Part shown: positions 2,787-24,024 of the stretch, piece after piece
How positions within the stretch are numbered: position 1 is the stretch's first letter
Layout of the letters: the number at the start of each line of letters is the position of its first letter
From: Oscillospiraceae bacterium
Lineage (GTDB): Bacteria; Bacillota; Clostridia; Oscillospirales; Oscillospiraceae
DNA length: 34,829 nucleotides
Direction: 5' to 3'
Assembly (NCBI GenBank): GCA_017435525.1
Contig: JAFSEW010000003.1
Location: 1-34,829, forward strand
Notes under the pieces: model-generated
Seen by the model: the letters and a program-made list of their open reading frames with translations, nothing else
The model's database searches: none
Told to the model about the DNA's origin: nothing
Made by a program: the position numbers and the translations under genes

Positions 2787-3281
2787 ACGGACAAGGATAT
2801 TCTGGAACTGCTGTACCGCAAATACTACAGCAGCACGCTGCTCTATTGCACAGCCCTATGCGGCGATATCTACCTGGCCCAGGACTTGGTGGCCGATGCT
2901 TTCGTCAAGGCATATCTGGCCCTCCCGGAGGAGACACCCTCGTTTCAATTCTGGCTGCTGCGGGTGTGTAAAAACCTTTGGTATGACTACATACGCAAGA
3001 AGAAACCCCTGCTGCTGGAAGATTTGTCCCGGGATACCCCATGCCTTGAAACGCCGGAAACCGTGTATCTGGCAGCAGAACGGCAGCAGGCACTTTGGCG
3101 CGCCATCTATGCATTGCCGCTGCCGGACAGGGAGCTGGTAACCTTGCATTATTTTTCCCGGTTAAGCCTGCCGCAGATCGCTTCTCTCACCGGCAAGAGC
3201 CACGCCGCCGTCCGGCAGCGGCTCCACCGCCTGCGTCAGAAACTAAAAACACAATTGGAGGAGGAAGGTTATGGATTTTAA
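2787..3281 (+). CDS. ECF-type sigma-70 family RNA polymerase sigma factor; non-standard start codon
   Basis: About 164 aa. Region 2 (TALCGDIYLAQDLVADAF and the FQFWLLRVCKNLWYDYIRKK segment) is followed by region 4 with the helix-turn-helix SLPQIASLTGKSHAAVRQRL. The reading frame is closed by TAA at 2763 and contains no ATG or GTG before region 2; the first TTG, at 2886, lies inside it. The best-placed codon is ACG at 2787, 9 bases after AGGAGG, giving the ECF-like beginning xDKDILELLYRKYY; ATC 2781 and ATT 2799 are alternatives. A point mutation of ATG to ACG, a near-cognate start or a sequence error would each explain this. The gene overlaps the anti-sigma gene by 11 bases, which suggests translational coupling. 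Family call firm, start uncertain. Confidence 0.8.
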   Translation, partial: TDKDILELLYRKYYSSTLLYCTALCGDIYLAQDLVADAFVKAYLALPEETPSFQFWLLRVCKNLWYDYIRKKKPLLLEDLSRDTPCLETPETVYLAAERQQALWRAIYALPLPDRELVTLHYFSRLSLPQIASLTGKSHAAVRQRLHRLRQKLKTQLEEEGYGF

Positions 3282-4509
3282 GACCGCTATGGAACATGTT
3301 CGGGATGGCACCGCCACCGAGGAAGAACGCCGCCTGGTAGATAGCGAGGTGGACAAGTACCTGCTGATTACAGAGCACCTGGATGCCCGGTGGGAGCGGG
3401 AAGCGCCCCCCATGCCGGAGGTGCTGCCGGAATTGAAGCAGCTGCGTACCAAGCTGCGCCGCCGCAATGCTGTGCTGATCTTTACCTGCCTGCTGCTGGT
3501 GGCTGCCATTGCCGCCGCAGCAGCCGCCTATATCGCCCCCAGAGTGGAGGAAAGGCAGCAGACCCAGGTTCAGCAGCAAGTGCAGCAGGAAGTTGCCCCC
3601 CAGGTTCAGGAGCAGTTGGAGGAGCGGGAAAAAGCTTTGAAAGAAGCCAACGCGAAATACTGGGACCCTACCGCCCATACATATTCCGCGGATTACTCGG
3701 ATCTGCATCTGACCATGGACTGCTATGCAGAGCTGCACCTTTTCAGCTTTCGCAATGTCCATGTGGGAAGTCCCGTCCAAACAGACATCGGCACCTATCA
3801 GATCCCGGTTACCATCGTGAAAAACGGAGAATATAATCCCCAATACCAGGAAATCACCCTGAAAAAGGATGTGCTCACCCTGCCGCCGGAGCTGGACGAC
3901 AGCTTGATGCAGTATATGTTTGGCTGTATGAGCGGCCTGCCCGCAGGAGAGGATCTTGTGGTGAGAACGCCCGATTGGGTGACGGAGGAAATTGCGCAAA
4001 ACTACGAATATTTCACGCAGTGGCTGGCGCAGCTTCCGGATTATTTCAGCGTTGTGGCGGATGTGACATTTCCGGATTTTATGGATATGGAACAGTTCCT
4101 GGCTTTTTATGAACAGTACACAGACAGGATCAATATTGGATGGGTGGGAATCCGGAGTGGTTCGGGCCTTGGTCTTTGCGGCATGTCTCCCTTTACGAAT
4201 CTCAACGGTGCGGAGGATGTGGAAGGCTACCCCCACCTGCAATTCAGAGGCTTTGACGCGGTAACCCCGGAAAATCTGGAGCAGCACTTCATGTCTCTGC
4301 TGCGCTTTGCCCAGGATCAGTTGGATAAAGGCCGCGGTATCGCCAGATACAGTGATCCTGACTTCTACACGGATGTGCTGGGGTTTGTGAAACTGTATGG
4401 CATCAGCACATACGGCTGCCGCATTACCACCACCCCCAGCGTCCTTCTGGAACTGCTGGAAAGCGGCGTGATCAACTATACCCTTGTGCTGGATACCTTT
4501 ATACCCTAA
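3271..4509 (+). CDS. Anti-sigma factor-like membrane protein (Sigma_reg_N/Sigma_reg_C type)
   Basis: A 412-aa protein. A cytoplasmic head (1-65) with charged helices is followed by one transmembrane segment (about 66-89, very Ala/Leu rich), a Gln/Glu-rich coiled coil (about 92-128) and an extracytoplasmic domain to the C terminus. The layout matches the sigma-factor regulator families found beside Firmicutes ECF sigma genes (assignment from memory). The head probably holds the sigma factor encoded by the overlapping upstream gene, and the outer domain senses an envelope signal (inference). It starts at ATG 3271, with GGAGGAGG just upstream inside the sigma gene, so the two proteins are probably made in fixed ratio. 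No clear terminator follows. Confidence 0.75.
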   Translation: MDFKTAMEHVRDGTATEEERRLVDSEVDKYLLITEHLDARWEREAPPMPEVLPELKQLRTKLRRRNAVLIFTCLLLVAAIAAAAAAYIAPRVEERQQTQVQQQVQQEVAPQVQEQLEEREKALKEANAKYWDPTAHTYSADYSDLHLTMDCYAELHLFSFRNVHVGSPVQTDIGTYQIPVTIVKNGEYNPQYQEITLKKDVLTLPPELDDSLMQYMFGCMSGLPAGEDLVVRTPDWVTEEIAQNYEYFTQWLAQLPDYFSVVADVTFPDFMDMEQFLAFYEQYTDRINIGWVGIRSGSGLGLCGMSPFTNLNGAEDVEGYPHLQFRGFDAVTPENLEQHFMSLLRFAQDQLDKGRGIARYSDPDFYTDVLGFVKLYGISTYGCRITTTPSVLLELLESGVINYTLVLDTFIP

Positions 4510-12574: not shown

Positions 12575-13987
12575 TTATTCCGCCCGGCGGAAGCAGCTGT
12601 AGCTGACCATGGGCGCGCCTTCCATTTCCCAGGCCTGCTGCATCAGCAGGGTGCCATCGTCCAATACGGTGAGGCTGTATTCTGTGCCGAAGGCATTTAC
12701 ATAATTGACGGTGGCCGACCACTGATCGTTCCGGCAGTGGTAGTACAGCGCCTCCGGGAACACCACCAGCTCCTTGCCCCGGTAGCTCCAATCGGAGAAA
12801 TCCCGGTCGATGAAGTCGATCCAATACAGACCCGCGCCGTCTGTGGTGATCATCACGGTCTGATTGCCGGGGTCATCCTCGTTCCGATAGCCCTCCACTT
12901 CCGTCCAGGCCAGCTCCCAGGTGCCAACCATATCCTCCGGCGGCGGAATGAGAATCTCCGCCGGGGTCAGCCACTGGTACAGGGAATCCCAGCCGATCTC
13001 GATGCTTTCGTCGGAAATATCCATGGCAATATAGAGCAGTTCCAGTTCCCGGTGGATCAGCACATTGTAGCGCTTCACCCCGGCGAATTCCTCGAAATCG
13101 ATGGTCAGGATGGCATAGCCTTCCGCATAGTCCAGCTGCCAGGGGGCATCCGGATATTCGTGGTTTTCCGTGCCGTCAGTCCAGCGGACATCGCAGACAT
13201 CATCCCGGAAGGTCACCTGGTAGCTGTCCTCACCGAAGCCGTAGCTCCAGTCAGCGCCAAAGAGATCCGACACCGTGGGATAATCCCAATGGCTGTCCAG
13301 GCAGCTTTCGTGCTCCCGGCGCAGAGTCTCCACATAGGGCGTGAAGTCCCACAGCAGCGCTTCCCCGGCATCATTGCGCAGCGTATCGACCCAGCGCAGA
13401 CGGTTGATTCTGGGGTACCAGGTGACGCTGGTGCCGTCGGATTCGGTGATCACCACCTGGGTGTCAGGCTCCCAGCCTGCGTTGTTGCAGAACAGCAGGA
13501 TGGGATCGCCCTTTTCACTGCGGTAGATCACATCCGTGTAGTCATACACTTCGCTGCTTTCATTCCAGATGCCCCGGTTTACAGCGACGGTGGCATTGGG
13601 ATCCCGGGGAACGATGCAGAACAGCTCGCCGTAGCGTTCACCTACGATATGTTCATCGGGAATCCCCAGCAGGAACGGCAGATCCGCGCAAAGCTGCGGG
13701 GCCTGCTCCCCCATCACCGCGAAGGGATCCACAGGATCGTCGGAATCAATGGTATCCGCATAGCCGAAATAGGCGGCGGCAAACACCTGGGGCGTCTCCA
13801 CCATGGCCTGCCGGAAGGGATATATGGACACATCCTCGGCTTCAGGTGCGGCAGTGGCGGCCGTTGTGGGCGCCGTTTCCGGGGGCTGTATGGCCGGGGG
13901 TGCTGTCGTAACAGCCGGTGGAGATTCCTGGCAGCCGGCCAGCAGCAAAGCCAGAAGCACGAGAAGGGCAAACAACTGTTTTTTCAT
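12575..13987 (-). CDS. Putative secreted lipoprotein of unknown function
   Basis: 470 aa. The signal peptide MKKQLFALLVLLALLLAGC ends in a lipobox with the lipidated Cys at 19. A Pro/Thr/Ala-rich linker (about 20-50) follows, then an acidic, Trp/Tyr/Asp-rich beta-type domain. The last ~110 residues (from DMVGTWELAWTEVEGY) resemble a lipocalin-like module by their GTWEL start, which is only suggestive. I do not recognise a named family. ATG 13987 has AAGGAGG upstream. It begins 22 bases after the 5'-nucleotidase-family gene on the same strand and very probably shares its transcript. A terminator follows. It should be anchored on the outer face of the cytoplasmic membrane. Confidence 0.75.
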   Translation of the reverse strand: MKKQLFALLVLLALLLAGCQESPPAVTTAPPAIQPPETAPTTAATAAPEAEDVSIYPFRQAMVETPQVFAAAYFGYADTIDSDDPVDPFAVMGEQAPQLCADLPFLLGIPDEHIVGERYGELFCIVPRDPNATVAVNRGIWNESSEVYDYTDVIYRSEKGDPILLFCNNAGWEPDTQVVITESDGTSVTWYPRINRLRWVDTLRNDAGEALLWDFTPYVETLRREHESCLDSHWDYPTVSDLFGADWSYGFGEDSYQVTFRDDVCDVRWTDGTENHEYPDAPWQLDYAEGYAILTIDFEEFAGVKRYNVLIHRELELLYIAMDISDESIEIGWDSLYQWLTPAEILIPPPEDMVGTWELAWTEVEGYRNEDDPGNQTVMITTDGAGLYWIDFIDRDFSDWSYRGKELVVFPEALYYHCRNDQWSATVNYVNAFGTEYSLTVLDDGTLLMQQAWEMEGAPMVSYSCFRRAE

Positions 13988-14009: not shown

Positions 14010-15473
14010 TTATTCCACCACCAGTCTGCCGCAGACAGTACGGTCCAGATTCTGATGGCTGGACAGGTATTCTTCCAGAATATCCTGGCAGGAGGAGGCG
14101 ATCATGGCGGGCGCGCCGTTGGTGGCGATATCCTCCTGCGTTACGGAGAAGAAGCTCTCCAGATTCATAAAGTGATAATGCTGCAGACCCACTTTGTAGA
14201 TCTGCTGATCTTCAATGGGCGCACCGTTGAGGGCAAACTCCCGGAACTCCCGGCTGGCTCTGCTGTAGACCACCCGCATGCCCCGGGAGAACTGGTAGAA
14301 TTCGCAGTGGGCGCCTTCCCATACCGCATCCCGGAGCATGAAGCGGATCATCTGCTTCAGCTGCCGGCCTGAGACCCGCAGCAGATGGATAGCATCGTCA
14401 TAGGGGAAGCACTCCGTCAGATCTGCCAGCAGCACAAGGGGACCCAGTGCTTCACCCCGGATACTGCCGGAACCCAGCAGCATCAGATCCAGGGAGAGGC
14501 TTTCCTGCAGGATATCCGCCAGCAGGTTGCCCAACTCCGTTTCCCGGTTGCGGTCGGGATGGGTCAGGCAGCGCTTCAGCCGGGTGACCACGCGGCTGTA
14601 GATCCGGTCTGTGGCGTCCTTGTAGTAGGTAAGCACATCCTCCAGCGCAAGATCCTTGGGGCAGGTTTCCCCGGTGATGGGGACGCTCTGCCAGCGGTAG
14701 CTGTGGAGGCTGTTGCTGTCGGTGTCGATCTCCAGATCGAAGCGGCCGATCTGATCGGTGCCGGTGCCGGCATGGGCGATGACGATGCCGTTCACCTCCA
14801 CCGCCTGCTCCAGGAAGGTGTGGGAATGGCCACCGATGATCAGATCCACACCCAGAGCCGGGTCCAGCTGCGCGGCCAGCTGCTTGTCCTCCTCAAAGCC
14901 GATATGGGTCAGCAGCACCGTGCAGTCGATGTCCAGGGCGTTATAGGCGTTGCAGATCCGGGCCACCTCCTGGGCGGCCTCGTGGATATCCACGAAGGTG
15001 CCGATCAGATTCTCATGCCTGGTCTGGGAAAGCACCGATTCTGTCAGGATGCCGATAAACAGGATCTTCATGCCGTCAATTTCCAGGATGTAATGGGGGC
15101 GGAACAGGCGGGCGTTGTTGGTAGTGATGTGCAGGTTGGCGTTGATGATTGGGAATTTTGCGCATTTTTCAATAAAGAGCAAATGGGCAATGCCGTAGTC
15201 GGTTTCGTGATTGCCGATGGTCACCACATCCGGGCTGAGCATATTCATGATCTCGATGGTGGAGATCCCCCGGAATTCCGAATCGATCACAGAACCCCGG
15301 AACATGTCGCCGGCAATGCAGTAGATGGTGTTTTTCTCTTCCCTGCGCACCTGGCTGATATAGCCGGAGAGCATGGAAACGCCGCCGATCAGCTGAGAAT
15401 CCACTTCAGCGGCCAGAAAATCGCCGTGCATGTCATTGGAATGCAGAAGTGTGACTGTTTTGCAATTTGCCAT
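14010..15473 (-). CDS. Bifunctional metallophosphatase / 5'-nucleotidase family protein, no signal peptide
   Basis: 487 aa. The N-terminal calcineurin-like phosphoesterase domain has all the metal-binding motifs: D14 and H16 (HSNDMHGDF), D56 (AGDMFRG), N88-H89 (GNHETDYG), H190 (LLTHIGF) and H216/H218 (GGHSHTF). The C-terminal 5'-nucleotidase domain (about 300-487) has GNLLADIL, the GSGSIRG segment and FPYDDAI. UshA/YfkN-type relatives are normally secreted; this start (ATG 15473 after AAAGGA) gives no signal peptide, so a cytoplasmic enzyme acting on nucleotides or similar phosphoesters is expected. The lipoprotein gene follows after 22 bases. Family certain, substrate unknown. Confidence 0.9.
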   Translation of the reverse strand: MANCKTVTLLHSNDMHGDFLAAEVDSQLIGGVSMLSGYISQVRREEKNTIYCIAGDMFRGSVIDSEFRGISTIEIMNMLSPDVVTIGNHETDYGIAHLLFIEKCAKFPIINANLHITTNNARLFRPHYILEIDGMKILFIGILTESVLSQTRHENLIGTFVDIHEAAQEVARICNAYNALDIDCTVLLTHIGFEEDKQLAAQLDPALGVDLIIGGHSHTFLEQAVEVNGIVIAHAGTGTDQIGRFDLEIDTDSNSLHSYRWQSVPITGETCPKDLALEDVLTYYKDATDRIYSRVVTRLKRCLTHPDRNRETELGNLLADILQESLSLDLMLLGSGSIRGEALGPLVLLADLTECFPYDDAIHLLRVSGRQLKQMIRFMLRDAVWEGAHCEFYQFSRGMRVVYSRASREFREFALNGAPIEDQQIYKVGLQHYHFMNLESFFSVTQEDIATNGAPAMIASSCQDILEEYLSSHQNLDRTVCGRLVVE

Positions 15474-15535
15474 AATCCCAATCCTTTCCTTCGTATTTGA
15501 CCAATGCAGAGGGTCCACACAGGAAAAACTTCGAA

Positions 15536-15564
15536 AGTATCAAAAACTTTCCTGCAGGGATCAA
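15536..15564 (-). promoter_or_regulatory. Possible promoter for the nucleotidase-lipoprotein pair
   Basis: Minus strand TTGATC (15564-15559), 17-base spacer, GATACT (15541-15536), 63 bases before the start codon. The -10 has two mismatches, so this is tentative. Confidence 0.4.
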
Positions 15565-15573
15565 AAGCCGATG

Positions 15574-15603
15574 GGGAAGTGGCGGGTTGCCCCGCCACTT
15601 CCC
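15574..15603 (-). terminator. Hairpin closing the eight-gene operon
   Basis: 13-bp perfect stem (15574-15586 with 15591-15603), loop TTGC, 16 bases past the last stop codon. The T-run on the minus strand is weak (one TTTT ten bases on), so termination may be partial. Confidence 0.6.
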
Positions 15604-15619
15604 GCACCGCTGTGCTGCA

Positions 15620-17089
15620 TCAGGAGATAGAAAGTTTAAATGCAATGGCTTCCATTGCGGATCCGTCTGCACGGTCTTCGGTCATAACCACAAGAATGCT
15701 GCCGTCATCCATCACATCGCCGGTTGCAAACCAGGGGTAGTAAGTACCGAACAGATCGCCATCCTCCACAGCGCCCAGCCAGGTGCCATCGGCTGCCCAC
15801 AGGACAACCTCACGCATATTGCCGTCCATTGCCAGGAATCCGTTGGCAGTTTTTGCCGTGAAGGTAACGGAACCGAGACCGAAGCTGCTGGTGGGATCGC
15901 CGCACAGCTCCAGCTGCAGGTTGCCGCTGTGATCGTAGACGCAGACCTGGTGATCGCCGTCATCGGCAGGTGTGCCGCTCACATAGATGTAGCTGTCGTC
16001 TATGCAAAGGTGACTGACGCTCTTCATTTCAGGGAACGGGAACGATTGGCCAACCAAGCCGCCGTCCTGGAAAGTGTATTTCTCGCAGGCATCCCCGTCA
16101 TAGAACCAGCTGATACCCCAGGTGCCGTCGGGTGCCACAGCGAATTTATCAGGTCCGTCGTAGGAGTAGAGAATGCTGTCTCCATCGTGACCGATGACAG
16201 GATTCATGAAGGAGGACAGGACCATTGCACCATTGGCGCTCTCCACGAAATCATACTCATCATCCAGAGGAATCTCACGCAGGAGGGTCAGTCCGCTGTC
16301 CTCCAGCGCATATTCATAAAGCAAATAATCACTGAGCAGATACACCTTGTCGCCAATGACTTCCACATCATGATTGAATGTCTCAAAGGTTGTCAGCGAT
16401 TGGGACATGGGGAGGAATGTGGCGCTTACGGTGTAGGTGCCTACAGCGGCACTGAGATTTTCGCTGCTGAAGGGTTCACCATCCCAGGGCCAGGGGGGTT
16501 CGATGTTGTCGGTGCCGGATGCGGTGCAGGTAATGCTTGCCACCAGAGCGGGAACCCGGGGATCTTCCCATTGGCAGGCATAGATATTGTAGGTAACGCC
16601 TGCAGCCTCATTACGGCCATAGAAATACCGGTCGCTGCCCTGATCTACCAGCAGCATAGGCTGGCCGCCGATATCGGTGGTTTCCACTTCACCTGCCACA
16701 TAGGCCATCATATCTACCTCATAGTAATCCAGCTCTTCCCGGAAAGACTCAGGATCGTCCAGTTCCGCTTCAATTGTGACATCGATCACAACATCACCGG
16801 CTTCGTCCAGAATACAAAGGGTCGCATAGCCGCCGTCGCTGTCGAAGTAGTAATCCTCCTCGGACAGCGTCCAGCCGTCCTTTTCGTTGTAAGCCACGGT
16901 AAAAAATGCGTTTTCATGAACAGTCAGCGAGGGGTCGGAGGTGTTTTGCGTAGGGGATGCGGGTTCTTTTTGTCCGTTTGTCTGTTCGGGTACCTTTGGG
17001 GGATCGGTGGGGGTGTTTTCTCCACCGCCGCAAGCTGCCAGACTCAGCAGCATAAGCACTGCCGTCAGCAACGCCAGAAACTTATTCAT
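15620..17089 (-). CDS. Putative lipoprotein, last gene of the zinc-ribbon/SPFH operon
   Basis: 489 aa. The signal peptide ends in lipobox LSLAAC (Cys 20), followed by a Gly/Pro/Thr linker (about 21-60). A compact domain follows (about 62-200, starting HENAFFTVAYNEKDGWTL), then a C-terminal half with repeated blade-like strands (DSILYSYDGPDKFAVAPDGTWG, SYIYVSG, GFLAMDG, LGAVEDGDLFG) that looks like a beta-propeller. I do not recognise a named family. ATG 17089 follows AGGAGGAA. It lies 35 bases after the DUF4428 gene and is therefore placed in the same operon. As the only clearly outer-face protein of the set it could be the sensing or substrate-binding arm (inference). Confidence 0.78.
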   Translation of the reverse strand: MNKFLALLTAVLMLLSLAACGGGENTPTDPPKVPEQTNGQKEPASPTQNTSDPSLTVHENAFFTVAYNEKDGWTLSEEDYYFDSDGGYATLCILDEAGDVVIDVTIEAELDDPESFREELDYYEVDMMAYVAGEVETTDIGGQPMLLVDQGSDRYFYGRNEAAGVTYNIYACQWEDPRVPALVASITCTASGTDNIEPPWPWDGEPFSSENLSAAVGTYTVSATFLPMSQSLTTFETFNHDVEVIGDKVYLLSDYLLYEYALEDSGLTLLREIPLDDEYDFVESANGAMVLSSFMNPVIGHDGDSILYSYDGPDKFAVAPDGTWGISWFYDGDACEKYTFQDGGLVGQSFPFPEMKSVSHLCIDDSYIYVSGTPADDGDHQVCVYDHSGNLQLELCGDPTSSFGLGSVTFTAKTANGFLAMDGNMREVVLWAADGTWLGAVEDGDLFGTYYPWFATGDVMDDGSILVVMTEDRADGSAMEAIAFKLSIS

Positions 17090-17124
17090 ATGCGATTCCT
17101 CCTGTTCATGGATGTATAGAAAGG

Positions 17125-17889
17125 TTACTGGTTGTAAGGTGCCAGTGCGGCATCTGCTTTTGCGATCCACTGGGTTCTGTCACCTTGCAGATATGCGCCT
17201 ACGGCATCCACGGTCTCAGCGGCCTGTGCTTCATCCAGCGTGCCGTTGGCAGCGGCCTTCACAGTGTTTGCCACAGACTTGATAGCATCCAGCTGCCGCT
17301 TGGCGTTCTTGAAGGAGTTACCCAGTGTTCGCTGAATACCGAAGAGAGTATCAAAATACTTAGCAGCGCTTTCATAGGACTTGCTGTTGGCCATTTCAAG
17401 ACGGAAGCTGTGCATGCCGGTGGTGTCCTTGAAGACCATGGCGCAGAATTCCTTCTTTTCCATCTTGCCGTCGGAATTCTTCACGGTTTCTTCCTCGTAG
17501 TCATACTGCACCAGGTCTGCGATCCGATATACGCAGGCCAGCTCGCTTTTGCCGAAGATGAAGATCTTGTAGCGGGTCTCCACCAAAGCCATTAAACCTG
17601 TGGAGGGAGATACATACAGCAGCGGTCCGCCAACACCAAATATCTTGAGCTTTTCATCCTTGTTTTTGGACTTCTTCAGGGGCAGGAGCAACTCGTTCCA
17701 GATCCTGGTGCCCTTTTCGATTTGTGCGATATGGGCGGTGACATCGCCCAGGGTCGCGGAGATTTTGTCAAAGTTCTTGAAGGTCTTTTTGCTGCAGACT
17801 TTTCTGCAGATGTAGCTGCCATCGGCCAGCTTCTGCTCGGACATCAGGCCTACCTCTGCTCCGCAAATCGCGCAATTATGCTTTGCCAT
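17125..17889 (-). CDS. DUF4428 zinc-finger protein (second DUF4428 gene of the operon)
   Basis: 254 aa. The N-terminal zinc-binding module has CAICG at residues 6-9 and YICRKVCSKK at about 27-36, the DUF4428 pattern of a C-x2-C knuckle, a Leu/Asp loop and a second Cys pair. A central domain (about 75-190) reads like a PH/GRAM-type beta-domain: YKIFIFGKSELACVYRIADL and EFCAMVFKDTTGMHSFRL. The C-terminal region is helical, Ala-rich. No signal peptide or membrane helix. Function unknown. The start is ATG 17889 with AAAAGGAGG upstream; the 68-base gap to the TPM gene is the longest in the operon and holds a small CACCG/CGGTG hairpin. It shares its N-terminal module with the protein at 19843-20706. 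Confidence 0.82.
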   Translation of the reverse strand: MAKHNCAICGAEVGLMSEQKLADGSYICRKVCSKKTFKNFDKISATLGDVTAHIAQIEKGTRIWNELLLPLKKSKNKDEKLKIFGVGGPLLYVSPSTGLMALVETRYKIFIFGKSELACVYRIADLVQYDYEEETVKNSDGKMEKKEFCAMVFKDTTGMHSFRLEMANSKSYESAAKYFDTLFGIQRTLGNSFKNAKRQLDAIKSVANTVKAAANGTLDEAQAAETVDAVGAYLQGDRTQWIAKADAALAPYNQ

Positions 17890-17957
17890 TCTCTTTTCCT
17901 CCTTTTAAATGATATGTATTCACCGACGTTACGGTGAGATGGACATAGGGGTATATG

Positions 17958-18710
17958 CTAGAAGGAACCGCCGCCGACGCTGCGGGAGCCGCCGGAACGG
18001 GAACCGGAGGAATTGCTGGATTCCTTCTTGGTTCTGGTCACATTCCGGTAAAGGAAAATGTCGTTGGAGAGGGTCAGCTGCATGCTGCCGTCGCGGACAT
18101 AGCTGTTGGCCTGACCCTGCTTCCGCACTGATTTCAGCTGGCCTTTCAGCACGGAGGTAACAATCAGCGCCAGCACAAGGCCTACCACAAGGGCGATGAC
18201 CAGATTCCGACCGGTCTTGAAGGGGAAGCCGTTGCGGTAGCCGTCCAGGTAGTAGTCGCACTTTTCGGCGAAAATTTCAAAAGCATCGGCGTAATCCCCT
18301 TCGGAGAGATCGGATACAATGGCATCGCCGATGGTATCGATGACGCCGGGATCAATGGCGTCGCCTGCGTAGCCGTTGCTGAGGATCCGGTATTCTCTGG
18401 GATCCATGCAGACCAGCAGCAGAACGCCGTCCCGGAGCGGACCGAAGCCAAAGCCCATGGAGTCGTACACTTCATTCACCAAATCGTCCGGGTCTTTGCC
18501 CCCGGCGGAAGCTACGGTGGCCACGATCATCTGGGCTTCGTAGGCGGTGCCCACTTCCGTCAGCTTCCGGGTAAGGGCCTGCTCTTCCGCCTGGGAAAGC
18601 AGGTCGGCATCATCCATTACGATGCCCGCGGCGGCAGAAGCGGAGCCGGAGACAGCAAGCCCCATACAAAGGGCCAGGATAAGCAGCAGGATCAAAAATC
18701 GTTTCATCAT
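17958..18710 (-). CDS. TPM-domain (TLP18.3/Psb32/MOLO-1) membrane protein, YdjH-like
   Basis: 250 aa. A signal peptide or anchor (about 3-27) is followed by a TPM domain (about 32-160: MDDADLLSQAEEQALTRKL, the QMIVATV strand, FGFGPLRDGVLLLV, NGYAGDAI). One membrane helix (169-188) leads to a cytoplasmic tail ending in a Gly/Ser-rich GSRSVGGGSF stretch, typical of this family. The domain faces outward by topology. In Bacillus subtilis the TPM protein YdjH works with YdjG to keep the SPFH protein YdjI, and through it PspA, at the membrane. ATG 18710 is chosen because it lies 6 bases from GGAGG; the GTG at 18716 overlaps that site. It starts 10 bases after the YdjG-like gene. Confidence 0.85.
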   Translation of the reverse strand: MMKRFLILLLILALCMGLAVSGSASAAAGIVMDDADLLSQAEEQALTRKLTEVGTAYEAQMIVATVASAGGKDPDDLVNEVYDSMGFGFGPLRDGVLLLVCMDPREYRILSNGYAGDAIDPGVIDTIGDAIVSDLSEGDYADAFEIFAEKCDYYLDGYRNGFPFKTGRNLVIALVVGLVLALIVTSVLKGQLKSVRKQGQANSYVRDGSMQLTLSNDIFLYRNVTRTKKESSNSSGSRSGGSRSVGGGSF

Positions 18711-18720
18711 GCCCACCTCC

Positions 18721-19806
18721 TTACAGCAGCCAGAGCAGATAGCTCAAAGCGAAAACTGCGGCGGTGCCTGCGGCAGCCAGACCCGCAAACCATTTCCGGA
18801 ATGCGCCCCGATCCATTGGCAGGTCACCGGCGATTTTGCCGGTCTGCCCGTTGACGGCAAAGGTAAAGTTCTGACCGTTCCACTTGGTGTTCAGAATCCA
18901 CACGGGGTACAGAGCATATCTGGCCCGGCCGTTTTGCAGATTGATGGTGGTGCTGGTGGGAATAACGGAAGAATAGCCCACAACTGTGGCAGCGAAGGCT
19001 TCCTCGGTGCTCTGCTTGATGCGATCATTGGCTCTGCCAATGCTGGCTTCGGCATCCACATCGTATTTGTCCGCCAGATAGCCGGAGAGGTATGCGGTCT
19101 GGAAATCCACGGCATCGCCGATGTGGAAAGGCTCGATGGATTCCATCAGGGCATCGTCCATCTTGGTGGAGCCGTCCACCGGCACATTCTCAAAGCCGAT
19201 ACCACCGGCCCGGACCACGGCGTAGTAGCTGGTTTCGGTGTAATTGTAGTTGCTGTCGCTCCAGTGACGGGTGCGGGTGGCCTTGTAGCGCACATGGGCA
19301 TCGGCATCGGTGTCGAAAAGCCACACCGGTACATACAGACCCTTCACTTCTTTAATATGGTTCTGATCCTTAAAGACCTTGGGCAGCAGCACCTTGCCTT
19401 TGTAGTGATTCTGCAGGGCTTCCATGGCGGCCTTCTTATCCACTTTGAAGGGAATCACCAGATCCGGCTTCAGATCGCCTGCAAACTGGCCGGTCATCAC
19501 CACGGGATTGCCGCAGAAGGGGCATTCGGTGGCGCCGGTGGTTTCATCGGCCACGATCTCACCGCCGCAGGTGTTGCAGGTGTAGAGGCGCAGCCCTTCG
19601 GATTCTCCCGGCGTCCATTCCTGACCGGCAGCGGTGTCCCAGGTCATATTGTCCTGAGGCTGTCCGCGCAATTCCGCGTCATAGGATTGCAGGGTTTCCA
19701 GTTCAAATTCGGTGTCGCAGTAGGGACATTTCATTTTCTGCAGTCCGGCGTCAAATTCGATGGCACCGTCACAGCAGGGGCATTTGTATTGTTGCAGTAC
19801 AGACAA
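18721..19806 (-). CDS. Zinc-ribbon membrane protein, YdjG-like (often misannotated as PriA-like)
   Basis: 361 aa. Two zinc ribbons come first: CPCC with CPYC (residues 9-30) and CNTC with CPFC (about 77-98). A mixed alpha/beta domain follows (about 110-320: LVIPFKVDKKAAMEALQNHY, GLYVPVWLFD, ALYPVWILNTKWNG). A C-terminal hydrophobic segment (about 341-361) forms a tail anchor. This is the layout of Bacillus subtilis YdjG and relatives, labelled TFIIB-type zinc-ribbon or primosomal-N'-like in databases; no helicase motifs are present. The start codon is TTG at 19806 with AAAGGAG upstream. It sits between a DUF4428 gene (36 bases) and the TPM gene (10 bases). Confidence 0.83.
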   Translation of the reverse strand: MSVLQQYKCPCCDGAIEFDAGLQKMKCPYCDTEFELETLQSYDAELRGQPQDNMTWDTAAGQEWTPGESEGLRLYTCNTCGGEIVADETTGATECPFCGNPVVMTGQFAGDLKPDLVIPFKVDKKAAMEALQNHYKGKVLLPKVFKDQNHIKEVKGLYVPVWLFDTDADAHVRYKATRTRHWSDSNYNYTETSYYAVVRAGGIGFENVPVDGSTKMDDALMESIEPFHIGDAVDFQTAYLSGYLADKYDVDAEASIGRANDRIKQSTEEAFAATVVGYSSVIPTSTTINLQNGRARYALYPVWILNTKWNGQNFTFAVNGQTGKIAGDLPMDRGAFRKWFAGLAAAGTAAVFALSYLLWLL

Positions 19807-19842
19807 GGTTTCTCACTCCTTTATAAAAAGTGTTTGGGGTGA

Positions 19843-20706
19843 TCAGAATTTTGTGCCGCAGTACTGGCAGAACTTGCCGCCTTCGTTGGCAGCGCCGCAG
19901 CCGGGGCAGAACTTGGGGCCTGCGGGTTCTGCAGGTGCGGCGGGAGCAGCGGGTTCTGCGGCAGCAGGCTGTGCCACAGGGGCAGCCGCGCTTTCGTAGC
20001 CGGGCAGTACCATGCCGTTCATGCCGCAGCGGAACAGTTCTTCCAGATCGTCGCAGTCCTTGCGGTACTTCCGGTACTCCGGATACAGGGTCGGCTCAAA
20101 GTCCCGGCGCATGGCACCCATGCCGATGTTTGCGCGGATACCTACAGGGCGCTGGTTCACGGTTTCCAGATTCAGGGTCTCCCGGTTGATCCGGAAACGC
20201 ATATCGTCGAAATAGGGGTGATTCACGGTGATTTCTCCATAGAAATCATAGCTGTATTCATACCGGGGCGGGTTGTAGCTGACTTCCTCGCCCTGGCTGT
20301 TTGTGAATTTCAGCTCATCCCGGTCTTCCTGGATATCGATGTTGAAGGAAGTCACATCCCGGAAGCTGACCAGATCCGCATTCTCTTCCCGGTAGCCGTC
20401 GTAGCGTTCAATGACGAATCGGGAAGGAACGCCGTTTTCCAGCTCTGCCCGGAGGGTATAGTCCTCGCCGAAGGCCAGGGTGGGACGGAAGCCGCTGAGC
20501 GCCGCTTCATTTTCCTCCCGGTATGCCAGCTGCTGTTTGATCTGATCTACGGTGGAGTGGCGGCGGTCATCAAACCAGGGAGAGAGCTTTGCGGCACATT
20601 CCTTGCAGCAGTTGCCGTCTTCCAGCTTCCGGTTGCCCAGCAGGCCGATCTCGCCGCCGCAAAGGGAGCATTCTTTCTTCTCAAACATTTTCTTAAAGAA
20701 ACCCAT
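19843..20706 (-). CDS. DUF4428 protein with C-terminal zinc ribbon
   Basis: 287 aa. The N-terminal DUF4428 zinc module has CSLCGGEIGLL (Cys 13, 16) and NCCKECAAKL. The middle domain (about 65-215) is beta-rich: PSRFVIERYDGY, SFNIDIQEDRDELKFTNSQG, and a PPRYEYSYDFYGEITVNHPY stretch. A Pro/Ala linker (about 240-262) leads to a C-terminal double zinc ribbon, FCPGCGAANEGG then FCQYCGTKF. The C-terminal ribbon is of the same zinc-ribbon_2 type as those on the SPFH protein, so both may dock on a common partner (inference). ATG 20706 has GGAGGTATC upstream. Function unknown. Confidence 0.82.
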   Translation of the reverse strand: MGFFKKMFEKKECSLCGGEIGLLGNRKLEDGNCCKECAAKLSPWFDDRRHSTVDQIKQQLAYREENEAALSGFRPTLAFGEDYTLRAELENGVPSRFVIERYDGYREENADLVSFRDVTSFNIDIQEDRDELKFTNSQGEEVSYNPPRYEYSYDFYGEITVNHPYFDDMRFRINRETLNLETVNQRPVGIRANIGMGAMRRDFEPTLYPEYRKYRKDCDDLEELFRCGMNGMVLPGYESAAAPVAQPAAAEPAAPAAPAEPAGPKFCPGCGAANEGGKFCQYCGTKF

Positions 20707-20748
20707 AGTGATACCTCCGTTTCAGAATGCTTTTGTTATTCCTGCGAA

Positions 20749-22170
20749 TCAAACGATGTCGCCGTTGTCAAAGGGGTCGCCGCATTCGGGGCAGAACCGG
20801 GGTGCCTTGGTGGGGTCGGCAGGCTGCCAGCCGCACTTGTCGCACTTATACTGGGGTACCCCTGCGGGCTTCTTGCTGCCGCACTCAGCGCAGAACTTAC
20901 CCTTGTTTCTGGCACCGCAGCTGCAAGTCCAGCTGCCGTCATCGGCGGGCTTGGGACTGCCGCATTCCGGGCAGAACTTGCCGGTGGCGGTGGCACCGCA
21001 GCTGCACTTCCAGCCGGCAGCGGGTTCCGGCTTCTTGCTGCCACACTCGGGGCAGAACTTGCCGGTGGCAGTAGCGCCGCAGCTGCACTTCCAGCCTTCT
21101 GCCGCGGCAGCTGCCTGCTGCTGTGCTTGCTGCTGCGCCTGCTGCATCTGTTGCTGCTGCACGCCCATCTGGTAGAAGTTCTGGGCTGCGCCGTTGCCGC
21201 CCATAGCGCCTGCCATGCCCATGCCCATGAAGCCGGCCATGGCGCCGGAAGCGTTGTTGGCAGCGGCGACTCTGGCTTCAGCTATGGAGGTAGTTTCCAG
21301 ACCGGCCATCATGAAGGGGTTCTGACCTGCGGTCATGCCATCTTCCAGGAACTGGATCTTCTGCATATCCTCGGGGCTCAGGGTGATGGGATTCAGGGCG
21401 ATCTTTTCAATGGAGAGGCCGCGGTTCTCTGCCCATTCGGTCTGCAGGGCATCGTTCATGGCCTTCTTCAGCTCATTGGCCTTGGCAGGGATCTGTGCGG
21501 GACGGATCTCCATCTCAGCCAGCGCGCCGAAAGCGGGCTGCAGAGCATCCACGAACTCCGCCTTCAGCTGCTCGTCGATGATGTCACGGGTGTAGACATC
21601 AGAAACATTGCCTGCGATCCGGGTGTAGAACAGCAGAGGATCGGAAATGATGTAGGAATACACGCCGTTGCAGCGGATATTCACGGTGCGGTACATGTTC
21701 AGCCGCTTGTTGCATACCTCGAAGATGATGGGGCTGGGGGTGCCGAACTTGTTGCCCATGATCTCCTTGGTGTTGAAGTAGTAAACTCTCTGGTCTTTGC
21801 CGGTGTCGCCGCCGTAGGTGAAGCGCTTGCCGATGGCCTTGAAGGTGTCCTTCAGGCTCTGGCCGAACTTGCCTGCAAAGATGGAGGGCTCGGTGGAGGT
21901 GTCGTAGGTGTATTCGCCGGGCTCGGCGCAGACTTCCACAACCTTGCCCTGCTCCACAATGATCATACACTGGCCGTCGGCCACGGCAATACCGGAGCCG
22001 TTAGAGATAATGTTGTCGCTGCCTTTGGTGTTGGAGCTGCGCTTACCGCTGCGCTTCTGGCCCTTCACCATCAGGGTATCCATATCCAGGGCATCGCAAT
22101 AGAAGAATTCCTTCCACTGATCTGCCAGAACGCCGCCCAGGGCGCCGATACCTGCTTTAATAAGTCCCAT
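20749..22170 (-). CDS. SPFH-domain protein with four C-terminal zinc ribbons, YdjI-like
   Basis: 473 aa. The SPFH/band-7 domain (about 20-250) has the virion-core-type features of the YdjI branch: WKEFFYCDALDMDTLMVKG, GSGIAVADGQCMIIVEQGKV, then PGEYTYDTSTEPSIF. Helices and a Gly/Ala/Met segment (about 300-330) and a Gln/Ala-rich stretch (337-357) follow. Zinc ribbons lie at about 361-377, 388-404, 415-431 and 443-464. The first two are almost identical and the first three repeat every 27 residues. No signal peptide. In Bacillus subtilis YdjI links PspA to the membrane; no PspA gene is seen here. ATG 22170 follows AAAGGAG. The minus-strand call is secure although a long shadow frame runs opposite. 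Confidence 0.9.
   Translation of the reverse strand: MGLIKAGIGALGGVLADQWKEFFYCDALDMDTLMVKGQKRSGKRSSNTKGSDNIISNGSGIAVADGQCMIIVEQGKVVEVCAEPGEYTYDTSTEPSIFAGKFGQSLKDTFKAIGKRFTYGGDTGKDQRVYYFNTKEIMGNKFGTPSPIIFEVCNKRLNMYRTVNIRCNGVYSYIISDPLLFYTRIAGNVSDVYTRDIIDEQLKAEFVDALQPAFGALAEMEIRPAQIPAKANELKKAMNDALQTEWAENRGLSIEKIALNPITLSPEDMQKIQFLEDGMTAGQNPFMMAGLETTSIAEARVAAANNASGAMAGFMGMGMAGAMGGNGAAQNFYQMGVQQQQMQQAQQQAQQQAAAAAEGWKCSCGATATGKFCPECGSKKPEPAAGWKCSCGATATGKFCPECGSPKPADDGSWTCSCGARNKGKFCAECGSKKPAGVPQYKCDKCGWQPADPTKAPRFCPECGDPFDNGDIV
20889..21131 (-). repeat. Three tandem ~81-bp units encoding zinc ribbons of the SPFH protein
   Basis: Related segments starting near 20889, 20970 and 21051 are spaced 81 bases apart. 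The latter two differ by only a few third-position changes over about 45 bases, consistent with recent in-frame duplication. Confidence 0.7.
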
Positions 22171-22184
22171 AGTTCATGTCTCCT

Positions 22185-22451
22185 TTATGTTGATTTTTTA
22201 GAATACGGATTTTTATTTTCTTTGGGTGGGTCTTTTCCCGCGCTGCAGCGGGCGGCCCAGCCCATCAGCCACATGCCCGGCAGGATGCGAAGGATCCACA
22301 GGGCAAAACCGCCCACAGCCCACCACACCGGGATCTGCAGCCACAGGTGCAGCCCCAGCAAAAGCCAGCCGGGAATGCTCCACTGCCAGTTCAGCAGCAG
22401 GTTCAGCAGGAAACTCAGCCAAAACCCGCCGGATTGTCCCACGCGCCCCAT
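22185..22451 (-). CDS. Small Trp/Leu-rich membrane protein
   Basis: 88 aa, unrecognised. Two hydrophobic, Trp-rich segments (about 10-35 and 40-66) fill most of it, followed by a basic tail (KDPPKENKNPYSKKS). ATG 22451 has AAGGTG upstream. It lies 10 bases after the zinc-protein gene and 14 bases before the SPFH gene, so it belongs to the same transcript. Its size and topology would suit a membrane anchor or partner for the SPFH protein (inference from position only). Confidence 0.65.
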   Translation of the reverse strand: MGRVGQSGGFWLSFLLNLLLNWQWSIPGWLLLGLHLWLQIPVWWAVGGFALWILRILPGMWLMGWAARCSAGKDPPKENKNPYSKKST

Positions 22452-22461
22452 GGTCTGCACC

Positions 22462-22836
22462 TTACATTGCCGCTTCGACCACTTCCGCCGCCACAGGCAT
22501 GCCCTTCTGATCCAGTGCGCCAGCGCATTGGCGGCACATGTCCAGATCATCGCAGATCAGGAAGCACCGGTCGCAAACAATGCGCTTGCAGATGGGGCAG
22601 TAGTTCATGCGCTCTGCGGCGTTGCGGATGGCGTAGAGGCGGGCAGTTTCCTGCTCCTGGCTGTAAACGGCATGCAGGAGGGTTTGCTTGCCCGGGGTGT
22701 CGGCAATACTGTCTGCCCGGGAAAACCGTACCGGCCTGCTGGTATATTCCGTAGCGCAGCCGGCGCAGGATACGCGGAAGAGAAACACCTCCCGGGTGGA
22801 CAGATCTTCCAGAACGGATGCTACCAGTTTTCGCAA
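22462..22836 (-). CDS. Small treble-clef/zinc-ribbon protein, first gene of the SPFH operon
   Basis: 124 aa. An N-terminal part carries VSCAGCATEYTSRP, and a C-terminal cluster carries YCPICKRIVCDRCFLICDDLDMCRQC, pairs of cysteines spaced to bind two zinc ions (the C-terminal part is about residues 80-107). A helix lies between (about 55-78). No membrane segment. It is not a named family I can place. The start is TTG 22836, with AAAGGGGGG 7-8 bases upstream; in-frame ATGs further up lie in or before the promoter. It starts just inside the promoter at 22871-22898 and opens an eight-gene run in which at least five products bind zinc. Confidence 0.75.
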   Translation of the reverse strand: MRKLVASVLEDLSTREVFLFRVSCAGCATEYTSRPVRFSRADSIADTPGKQTLLHAVYSQEQETARLYAIRNAAERMNYCPICKRIVCDRCFLICDDLDMCRQCAGALDQKGMPVAAEVVEAAM

Positions 22837-22870
22837 TACGCAGCCCCCCTTTACAGCTTTGGATACTCTC

Positions 22871-22898
22871 ATTATAACGGAAACCGGCGGCAATGCAA
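22871..22898 (-). promoter_or_regulatory. Promoter of the eight-gene zinc-ribbon/SPFH operon
   Basis: Minus strand TTGCAT (22898-22893), 16-base spacer, TATAAT (22876-22871), 35 bases before the TTG start. This is a housekeeping-type promoter; no ECF-like CGT -10 is seen. Confidence 0.7.
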
Positions 22899-22942
22899 TC
22901 ATTCCGGGAATACTTTTCAAAAAGTATCCTGAGGATATAGGA

Positions 22943-22980
22943 AAACTGCACAGGAAGCCATGGCGTTACCTGTGCAGTTT
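22943..22980 (-). terminator. Terminator after the 7TM-LuxR gene
   Basis: AAACTGCACAGG (22943-22954) pairs with CCTGTGCAGTTT (22969-22980); the loop contains the self-complementary GCCATGGC. On the minus strand a TTTT follows. It begins 6 bases past the stop codon and separates this gene from the next promoter. Confidence 0.8.
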
Positions 22981-22986
22981 GCTGAT

Positions 22987-24024
22987 TTAGTTGGGGGTCG
23001 GCTCCATACCTTCCCCGGTGAGCTCTCCCAGCCTGCCGCAGCAGCGGAACAGCTCGATATAAAGCATCAGCTCATCCCGGGAGGCAACCGCCAGCTTCTG
23101 GTAGATGCTGCGGTTGTGTTTTTTCACGGTGTGGATGCTGATGAAGGCAAGCTCCGGGATATCCGCGGTCTCATAGCCGTCGATGTAGTAGTTCAGGATC
23201 CGCCGTTCGGCGGAGGAAAGGGTCTGGGCTTTTTCCGCAAAGCTGCGGAACATATCTTCCATGCCGGAAGGCAGGGCATGGGGCTGCACCTGCCGGGTAT
23301 TCAGCTGGGTCAGCAGCTGCACGCTGAGAATGCCGGCTTCCGGATGGACGATTCCATAGTCGCAGAGCATGCCGTAGATCAGCAGCAGCAGAACCTCCGT
23401 GGCGATGTAAGACACGGAAAGAAATTCAAAATCCACATGGATGATCTGCTCCACCAGCCACACGCCCAGATTCAGCAGCACCGCAGTAAACAGAAACAGG
23501 GTATACTTGGGAGAGGCCAGCCGCTTTGTTTTGGACGCCTGGGCAATGGCTGCCACCATGATCGCCATATACAGCCCCAGATACATCGCGTAAAGGCTGT
23601 GCAGGGGGCCGTATTCCTTGATCAGCCGGGTGGTGCCGTTGATGGTTTCCAGGGAGATAGCCTTGTAGTAAAGCCCCATCCAGTCGCCGCCGGCAGCCAG
23701 CAGGAAGGCGGCGGTGCTGATGGCAGTGAGGGTAACGACCGTCCATTTTTTCATCCGGAAGCCGCACACATTGCAGATGATCAGCAGCATCACCAGCATG
23801 GAAAAGGCGGTGCCGAAATAGGATATGCCGTTGGCCACCCTGGCCACAGCCAGTGAGCTGCAGACCGAAAGCAGGAAGTAGCCGCCGTTTGCCGCTGCCA
23901 CGCAGCCGAACAGGGAAGCAAACTGCCGGTTTTTCCGTTTGTCAAACATCAGATATCCCAGCCACAGCAGTACGGACAGCAGCGCTACGAATCCGTACAC
24001 CATGGCTGTATTTCCGTTTTTCAT
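22987..24024 (-). CDS. Membrane-embedded LuxR-type regulator with N-terminal 7TM domain
   Basis: 345 aa. About seven hydrophobic helices occupy residues 7-240, resembling the 7TM region found at the N terminus of some histidine kinases. A cytoplasmic linker (about 245-270) leads to a LuxR/GerE helix-turn-helix (about 275-335: LSSAERRILNYYIDGYETADI, then ISIHTVKKHNRSIYQKLAVAS). No kinase or receiver domain is present, so it would sense at the membrane and act on DNA directly. ATG 24024 has AAAAGGAGGGGG upstream and its own promoter, divergent from the ruv operon. The next operon downstream on the same strand is the SPFH/zinc-ribbon cluster, a possible target (inference). Domain call good; ligand unknown. 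Confidence 0.82.
   Translation of the reverse strand: MKNGNTAMVYGFVALLSVLLWLGYLMFDKRKNRQFASLFGCVAAANGGYFLLSVCSSLAVARVANGISYFGTAFSMLVMLLIICNVCGFRMKKWTVVTLTAISTAAFLLAAGGDWMGLYYKAISLETINGTTRLIKEYGPLHSLYAMYLGLYMAIMVAAIAQASKTKRLASPKYTLFLFTAVLLNLGVWLVEQIIHVDFEFLSVSYIATEVLLLLIYGMLCDYGIVHPEAGILSVQLLTQLNTRQVQPHALPSGMEDMFRSFAEKAQTLSSAERRILNYYIDGYETADIPELAFISIHTVKKHNRSIYQKLAVASRDELMLYIELFRCCGRLGELTGEGMEPTPN

Follow-up and report, generated by a model that had tools for sequence, protein, structure and literature searches.

An eight-gene Oscillospiraceae operon as a candidate accessory-rich form of a conserved, PspA-free SPFH-YdjG-TPM membrane complex

Do YdjG, YdjH and YdjI have a job where PspA is absent? 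In Bacillus, these proteins are read as helpers that tether PspA; should many Clostridia have retained them without PspA, they would have a primary function open to study in a PspA-free setting. The question is raised by an operon of eight genes, here called A to H, in a 34,829-nucleotide stretch of an Oscillospiraceae genome (contig JAFSEW010000003.1 of assembly GCA_017435525.1; hereafter, the window). Its eight open reading frames (ORFs) lie on the minus strand from 22836 to 15620, with gaps of 10, 14, 42, 36, 10, 68 and 35 bases, and Shine-Dalgarno (SD)-like sequences precede their starts. A first-pass annotation had read the operon as a PspA-less YdjGHI-like envelope system, and this interpretation was supported in part. 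We put the probability at roughly 55% that the unit encodes a conserved membrane complex without PspA, in an accessory-rich version, and that this complex works by the mechanism proposed below; that there is a conserved PspA-free complex is very likely.

Three of the products form the core. Gene C (20749..22170, minus strand, as are all features of the operon) encodes an SPFH protein, identified by Pfam Band_7_1 with 69.5 bits (cut-off, 24), that carries a C-terminal zinc-ribbon array with five CxxC pairs (alignment of 42 rows). Gene E (18721..19806), which has a TTG start, encodes a YdjG-like protein with two zinc ribbons, a conserved domain and one C-terminal transmembrane segment; its Pfam zinc-ribbon matches stayed below the cut-off, but the conserved Cys residues were invariant in the alignment. 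Gene F (17958..18710) encodes a TPM protein (84.5 bits; cut-off, 22.1) composed of a signal or transmembrane segment, the TPM domain, a second transmembrane segment and a Ser/Gly-rich tail. With hydrophobic segments at residues 5-23 and 170-188, F is predicted to expose the TPM domain outside the cytoplasm and to retain one anchor. None of the eight products passed an NCBIfam cut-off.

The trio recurs in other genomes. We examined 60 stretches around Band_7_1 matches from 150 genomes of the window's family, the best 80 of at least 589 confirmed loci found in named genomes with the YdjG alignment, and 40 stretches from a sample of 398 genomes of the phylum, 45 of which were matched by the YdjG alignment. 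The named loci were Clostridia or labelled only Bacillota, judging from their titles. Three duplicates (L158, L180 and L195) were dropped, which left 178 loci; the three are absent from both trees described below and still present in the LuxR and directon tables. YdjG was found in 145 of the 178 loci, and the stretches of these 145 contained SPFH in 130, TPM in 130, both in 118 and PspA in only 10. The order was mostly SPFH-YdjG-TPM in PspA-free loci and pspA-ydjG-[TPM]-SPFH in the others. In the family sample, window-type SPFH (phmmer E < 1e-60) was present in 43 loci, the window included, and 26 of these also had YdjG. Hence, the neighbourhood is conserved, as the first-pass annotation had proposed to check, and its PspA-free core stands, but lack of PspA is no peculiarity of the window: 135 of the 145 YdjG loci in this biased sample and 30 of 40 in the phylum sample were PspA-free.

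These counts bear on the trivial explanation that unrelated genes merely lie side by side. Such a chance neighbourhood could account for the variable accessory content and for the 17 of 43 family loci in which window-type SPFH had no YdjG in the stretch examined. Nevertheless, all three core genes occurred in 118 of 145 YdjG loci, proteins with a DUF4428 domain coincided with window-type SPFH in 20 of the 25 family genomes that have them (Fisher p 1.7e-8, relatedness ignored), and a locus labelled Lachnospiraceae, L147 of Frisingicoccus caecimuris DSM 28559, keeps A, SPFH, G, YdjG, TPM and H together. We therefore regard chance as an extremely unlikely explanation. Outside the locus sets, the Enterococcus gallinarum plasmid pK205-4a-A has SPFH, a hypothetical (YdjG-like) protein and TPM in a row, with a TPM that ends in RSF. 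Plasmids of Comamonas, Vibrio and Paracoccus (Pseudomonadota; L312-L314) share the SPFH gene followed by a YdjG-like gene, but within 5 kb neither TPM nor PspA is annotated in their incomplete gene tables. Close to this plasmid pair lie a toxic anion resistance gene in Paracoccus and a TIR-domain gene in Vibrio. Relatives of C, with at most 48% identity, are also encoded in unannotated "phage" records (MT838724, OR846590, OR848382 and others), which are perhaps misfiled bacterial DNA. For many gut-bacterial genes that now go by "SPFH", "TPM" or "hypothetical", these neighbourhoods would provide a common system.

How close is the trio to pspA-ydjGHI? In the comparison, B. subtilis was represented by the 10 pspA-linked loci from other genomes of the phylum sample. 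As in these operons, the genes are side by side, E is a two-ribbon YdjG-like protein (32% identical, across 356 positions, to a YdjG from a pspA operon), F is a TPM protein of the YdjH type (26% identity to a pspA-linked TPM) with a Phe-ended tail, and the SPFH protein has C-terminal ribbons. On the other hand, the window unit lacks pspA and has extra DUF4428, lipoprotein and small genes, its SPFH gene is first instead of last, and the SPFH protein is only 23% identical to a pspA-linked one and richer in ribbons: the window protein has five CxxC pairs, PspA-free rows had three to seven in 27 of 28 cases (none in one), and all 10 pspA-linked rows had two. In a tree of 55 SPFH rows, the window fell into a 23-row group with support of 100/100, and the 10 pspA-operon rows formed, together with the family loci L050 and L051, a separate group, also 100/100; four PspA-free rows (L272-L275) made up a third group outside the 23-row group. 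This tree had long inner branches, gave a tool warning and was calculated without L278. In the tree of YdjG (78 rows, root unknown), the window belonged to a 52-row PspA-free group (97/83), and the YdjG proteins of pspA operons split into two separate groups. The rows of both trees were chosen by hand. Thus, the likeness to YdjG, YdjH and YdjI that had been noticed at first holds for the YdjG, TPM and SPFH families, but the SPFH protein stands outside the group of the pspA operons, to which YdjI would correspond. Inside the 23-row group, the window, L065 and L147 formed a set with 100/100. L147 is labelled Lachnospiraceae and has A, G and H as well; the accessory-rich version may therefore have been passed from one family to another.

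PspA was detected neither among the eight products nor, by model, in the window, nor in the 77%-complete genome to which the window belongs, in agreement with the first-pass annotation. In the family sample, PspA was over the cut-off in 4 of 150 genomes, none of them among the 45 genomes with window-type SPFH (four of which, G129, G062, G036 and G123, were assigned by profile match alone). In the phylum sample, 105 of 398 genomes had PspA over the cut-off, only 17 of them together with a strong YdjG match (E 1e-20 or better). The 39 phylum genomes with strong YdjG, counted by hand, had no PspA over the cut-off in 22 cases, an adjacent PspA in 10 and a PspA elsewhere in 7. All 10 PspA loci were among the 40 of the phylum sample, and loci of Faecalibacterium and Blautia had no PspA within the 21 kb examined, their genomes not having been searched.

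The alternative is a remnant or split Psp system, in which PspA was lost recently, or its gene is missing from the assembly, and the trio remains in its service. The incompleteness of the window's genome and the 7 of 39 genomes with a distant PspA would fit such a scenario, and a gene for a 66-amino-acid PspC-domain protein is indeed present on contig C57 of the same genome (L310:5880-6080); this gene, however, is located between parB and serS. Moreover, two genomes of the window's genus (G049 and G135), both 99% complete, carry the trio (L062, L064 and L076) and gave no PspA match, and PspA was likewise not matched in the stretches of the 26 family loci that have window-type SPFH (SPFH-II) together with YdjG or of the 77 non-duplicate named loci. 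A remnant Psp system is therefore improbable. In many gut Clostridia, no PspA gene is adjacent to the trio, which hence probably has a job of its own.

What could this job be? According to the excerpted text of PMC8581546, YdjI and PspA of B. subtilis depend on YdjG and YdjH for their recruitment to the membrane, loss of YdjI alters membrane fluidity, and upon alkaline shock cell-wall synthesis is misplaced if YdjG or YdjH is lost. For a distantly related bacterial SPFH protein, assembly into a membrane-bound 24-mer is described (PMC10936438). With a YdjG of the family found in pspA operons and a TPM tail that likewise ends in Phe, the PspA-free trio, we consider it most likely, does the membrane part of the YdjGHI job by itself; for a role in envelope stress, the chances appear about even. 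In the mechanism we propose, TPM and YdjG would form the membrane receptor, as YdjG and YdjH do for YdjI of B. subtilis, and SPFH subunits would gather on this receptor into a ring or cage with numerous zinc ribbons on display. The tail of TPM would reach in, and its terminal Phe would be bound by the ribbon side of SPFH or YdjG. The assembly would stabilise fluid membrane and hold cell-wall synthesis in place under envelope stress, with the SPFH scaffold as the effector and PspA, where present, as an added client. DUF4428 proteins would be adaptors that dock via their ribbons, the lipoprotein or lipoproteins would act outside, and the neighbouring gene R, which encodes a seven-transmembrane (7TM) protein with a LuxR-type helix-turn-helix (HTH), is a candidate controller that might turn the unit on. 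In its most general form, this becomes a tentative and rather doubtful proposal: that the trio is an independent membrane-guarding machine to which PspA is a lineage-specific addition, with an SPFH cage latched by a TPM Phe hook, DUF4428 proteins as plug-in adaptors and lipoproteins as outside sensors.

A different function, assembly or repair of membrane protein complexes in the manner of a chaperone, with TPM resembling Psb32 and SPFH resembling HflKC and with no envelope-stress scaffold, is another reading of the PspA-free trio. Excerpts of PMC11237479 propose chaperone-like roles for PspA-associated band-7 and TPM proteins, and the accessories vary by genome, as client-specific adaptors would. 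A fixed client or protease gene, however, was not noticed among the recurrent gene clusters, although no search was aimed at them, and the B. subtilis data in the excerpted PMC8581546 indicate membrane fluidity and the cell wall instead. We consider the chaperone explanation unlikely.

Several observations weigh against a conserved PspA-free complex with the proposed mechanism. The 17 family loci with window-type SPFH and no YdjG in the stretch are matched by 27 of 145 YdjG loci that had no SPFH or no TPM in the stretch, some of them at contig ends. The named loci (77 without duplicates) are closely related to the query and thus a biased sample, the search for PspA in these loci was done with a four-sequence model instead of PF04012 and covered the stretch only, and PspA occurred elsewhere in the genome in the 7 of 39 strong-YdjG phylum genomes mentioned above. 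Because the window's SPFH protein falls outside the group of the pspA operons, transfer of function from YdjI is weaker. A LuxR gene no more than 6 kb upstream was found in just 13 of the 163 anchored loci, and two of these 13 are duplicates of each other. Finally, the Gly-rich TPM tail is absent in Ruminococcus flavefaciens-like loci, a lineage that keeps the trio, and the hook is therefore not always needed.

The proposed hook is the tail of the TPM protein. In F, it is encoded at 17961..18023 and ends in GGGSF; the tails of the relatives are Gly/Ser-rich with the typical end SSTHTSSSGxTHGGGGGKF. The last residue was Phe in 109 of 132 trio-linked TPM proteins (non-duplicate and closed; the open-ended L199 was left out), and six of the other 23 ended in Trp or Tyr. 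Among the 109 are all seven TPM proteins encoded in pspA operons; in the three remaining operons of this kind, no TPM was matched. In the control set of family TPM loci, TPM proteins were taken as linked if a YdjG or SPFH match lay within 1.5 kb, and L302, which is the L073 operon, was counted as linked. Unlinked TPM proteins of the window's family, i.e., the 23 that remained of the 30 best family TPM loci after removal of linked loci and two open-ended ones, share the Pfam TPM domain and, mostly, the Gly-rich tail with the linked proteins, but not one ended in Phe: 22 ended in Arg and one in Lys. Two hydrophobic segments flank the TPM domain in 114 of the 129 TPM proteins of PspA-free YdjG loci. 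We estimate the chance that the zinc-ribbon proteins recognise this Phe-ended tail as a hook at about one in three; if so, the tail would provide a one-residue handle on how the complex holds together. Neither a Phe-tail recognition signal nor a PspA-free trio was found described in the open-access literature searched. The tail-less loci of the Ruminococcus flavefaciens type are L164, L174, L178, L181, L185, L205, L207 and L208. We also looked for covariation of tail loss with YdjG or SPFH. It concerned mainly SPFH positions (the Cys residues at positions 68 and 81 of the window SPFH were lost in 6 of 14 SPFH rows lacking an aromatic TPM end) and was rejected as confounded, 8 of the 15 loci that lack an aromatic end being Ruminococcus flavefaciens-like by title or tree.

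Cys pairs are another recurrent trait. In alignments with relatives, they were conserved in five of the eight proteins (A, C, D, E and G); the expectation that at least five products bind zinc is upheld as far as these pairs go, zinc itself being inferred from them. The components are also predicted to lie inside, in and outside the membrane, just as had been anticipated. Searches of the PDB with the D, G, E and C profiles returned matches of the metal-ribbon type along with chance ones; rubrerythrin was the best match of D (E 4e-4), and E matched RNA polymerase subunit P (E 5e-4). So many ribbons could mean that the assembly is a zinc buffer or zinc sensor that holds zinc at the membrane. Structural zinc ribbons, however, usually hold zinc tightly, and no zinc transporter or Zur-type protein was matched among that part of the window genes that was scanned, which makes a zinc-handling function highly improbable.

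The accessory-rich character of the unit is due to A, B, D, G and H. Genes D (19843..20706) and G (17125..17889) both encode DUF4428 proteins (PF14471; 54.1 and 35.9 bits, both over the cut-off of 27.8). D has a second domain and a C-terminal zinc ribbon, and the C-terminal part of G looks helical by eye. The two align with each other over 145 columns including DUF4428 (hhalign probability, 95%). A PH-like domain after DUF4428, suspected by eye, was discarded: Pfam backed it in none of the 17 D-type and 8 G-type rows that make up the two alignments. DUF4428 was over the cut-off in 25 of 150 family genomes, among them the 20 with window-type SPFH mentioned above. Within the 178 non-duplicate loci, the window included, D was found in 16 and a G-type gene in 8. 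Hence, both DUF4428 assignments of the first-pass annotation are sound, but as minority accessories the two proteins are not a fixed stand-in for PspA. In two loci (L136 and L138), YdjG-TPM was accompanied by a G-type DUF4428 gene and a relative of c6, a gene described below, and SPFH was not matched within the stretch examined.

DUF4428 also raises the possibility of an anti-phage system. In the excerpted text of PMC13190303, the domain is at the N terminus of some SNIPE nucleases, as it is in D and G, and phage SPP1 induces pspA-ydjGHI of B. subtilis according to an excerpt of PMC11153139. But D and G are separate genes, and no nuclease domain was over the cut-off in them or in the other products; HNHc_6, at E 0.25 or worse in two of the eight G-type rows, is a chance-level match. 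At E 0.01, PADLOC matched none of the eight products, and the flanks of the operon, which include ruvA, ruvB and an nrdD-type gene, do not resemble a defence island. An anti-phage role is thus very unlikely.

Gene A (22462..22836) encodes a Cys-rich protein of 124 amino acids with four CxxC pairs; it has a TTG start with AAAGGGGGG upstream. Eight Cys residues were invariant across five rows (window, L061, L091, L141 and L147). When A was compared with prokaryotic RING fingers, all RING-like Pfam matches were below the cut-off (Prok-RING_2, 15.0 versus 22.4 bits). Gene B (22185..22451) encodes a Trp-rich protein of 88 amino acids that is probably a membrane protein. Its 10 Trp residues agree with the earlier description as a small, Trp-rich membrane protein, but the transmembrane score was not confirmed, no 19-residue window reaching a Kyte-Doolittle (KD) value of 1.6, and no Pfam family was matched; relatives sit shortly ahead of SPFH in L065, L082, L096 and L160. 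Gene H (15620..17089) encodes a lipoprotein of 489 amino acids, judged by eye from an N-terminal signal segment with a lipobox Cys (MNKFLALLTAVLMLLSLAAC; lipobox LAAC), and had no Pfam match over the cut-off; the propeller-like character suggested in the first-pass annotation was not confirmed. Relatives of H are in the directons of L066, L075, L093, L137, L146 and L147, and short ones are in L059 and L206, which gives nine non-duplicate loci with the window. Gene A was found in five non-duplicate loci and c6 in eight, the window included in both counts. The DUF4428 proteins, the lipoprotein and the small proteins are, by these distributions, recurrent accessories.

That A to H are one unit is well supported by the DNA alone, namely, by the close spacing, flanking hairpins and a perfect -10 box. 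A TATAAT (22871..22876) ends 34 bases before A and is preceded, at a spacer of 16, by a weak -35 sequence, TTGCAT (22898-22893), with three of six matching bases. A general sigma-70 scan of 14500-24000 on both strands did not list this site (5 sites found versus 4.6 expected). Upstream, RNA folding showed a hairpin at 22943..22980 that ends the regulator gene R; its outer stem has 12 pairs and is followed by a U run (z of the stretch, -4.7). Downstream of H lies a strong GC-rich hairpin of 13 pairs with a weak U run (15574..15603; z -4.9 for the stretch). The eight same-strand genes with gaps of 10 to 68 bases and the likely promoter ahead of them, both part of the first-pass annotation, were thus recovered.

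R (22987..24024, minus strand) combines HisKA_7TM and a LuxR-type HTH (50.0 and 39.5 bits, both over the cut-off). In all five loci with gene A, a LuxR-type HTH gene was found no more than 6 kb upstream of SPFH, on the opposite strand in L061. The HTH model, which was built from three sequences of two of these loci, matched 19 times across the three locus sets; 15 of these matches lay upstream of the anchor gene at a distance of no more than 6 kb. By eye, response-regulator-like genes, a LuxR-HTH membrane protein and a solute-binding-like lipoprotein lie upstream of the operon in L141 and L147, where they occupy the place of R.

On the other side, two genes beyond H, c6 (12575..13987, minus strand) encodes a probable lipoprotein. 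Relatives of c6 are within the SPFH/YdjG directon of L065, L136, L137, L138 and others, and the system may therefore extend past H and the 5'-nucleotidase-like gene that follows it, to c6. Farther away, at 3271-4509 of the window, lies a gene for a 412-amino-acid protein with a Sigma_reg_C domain.

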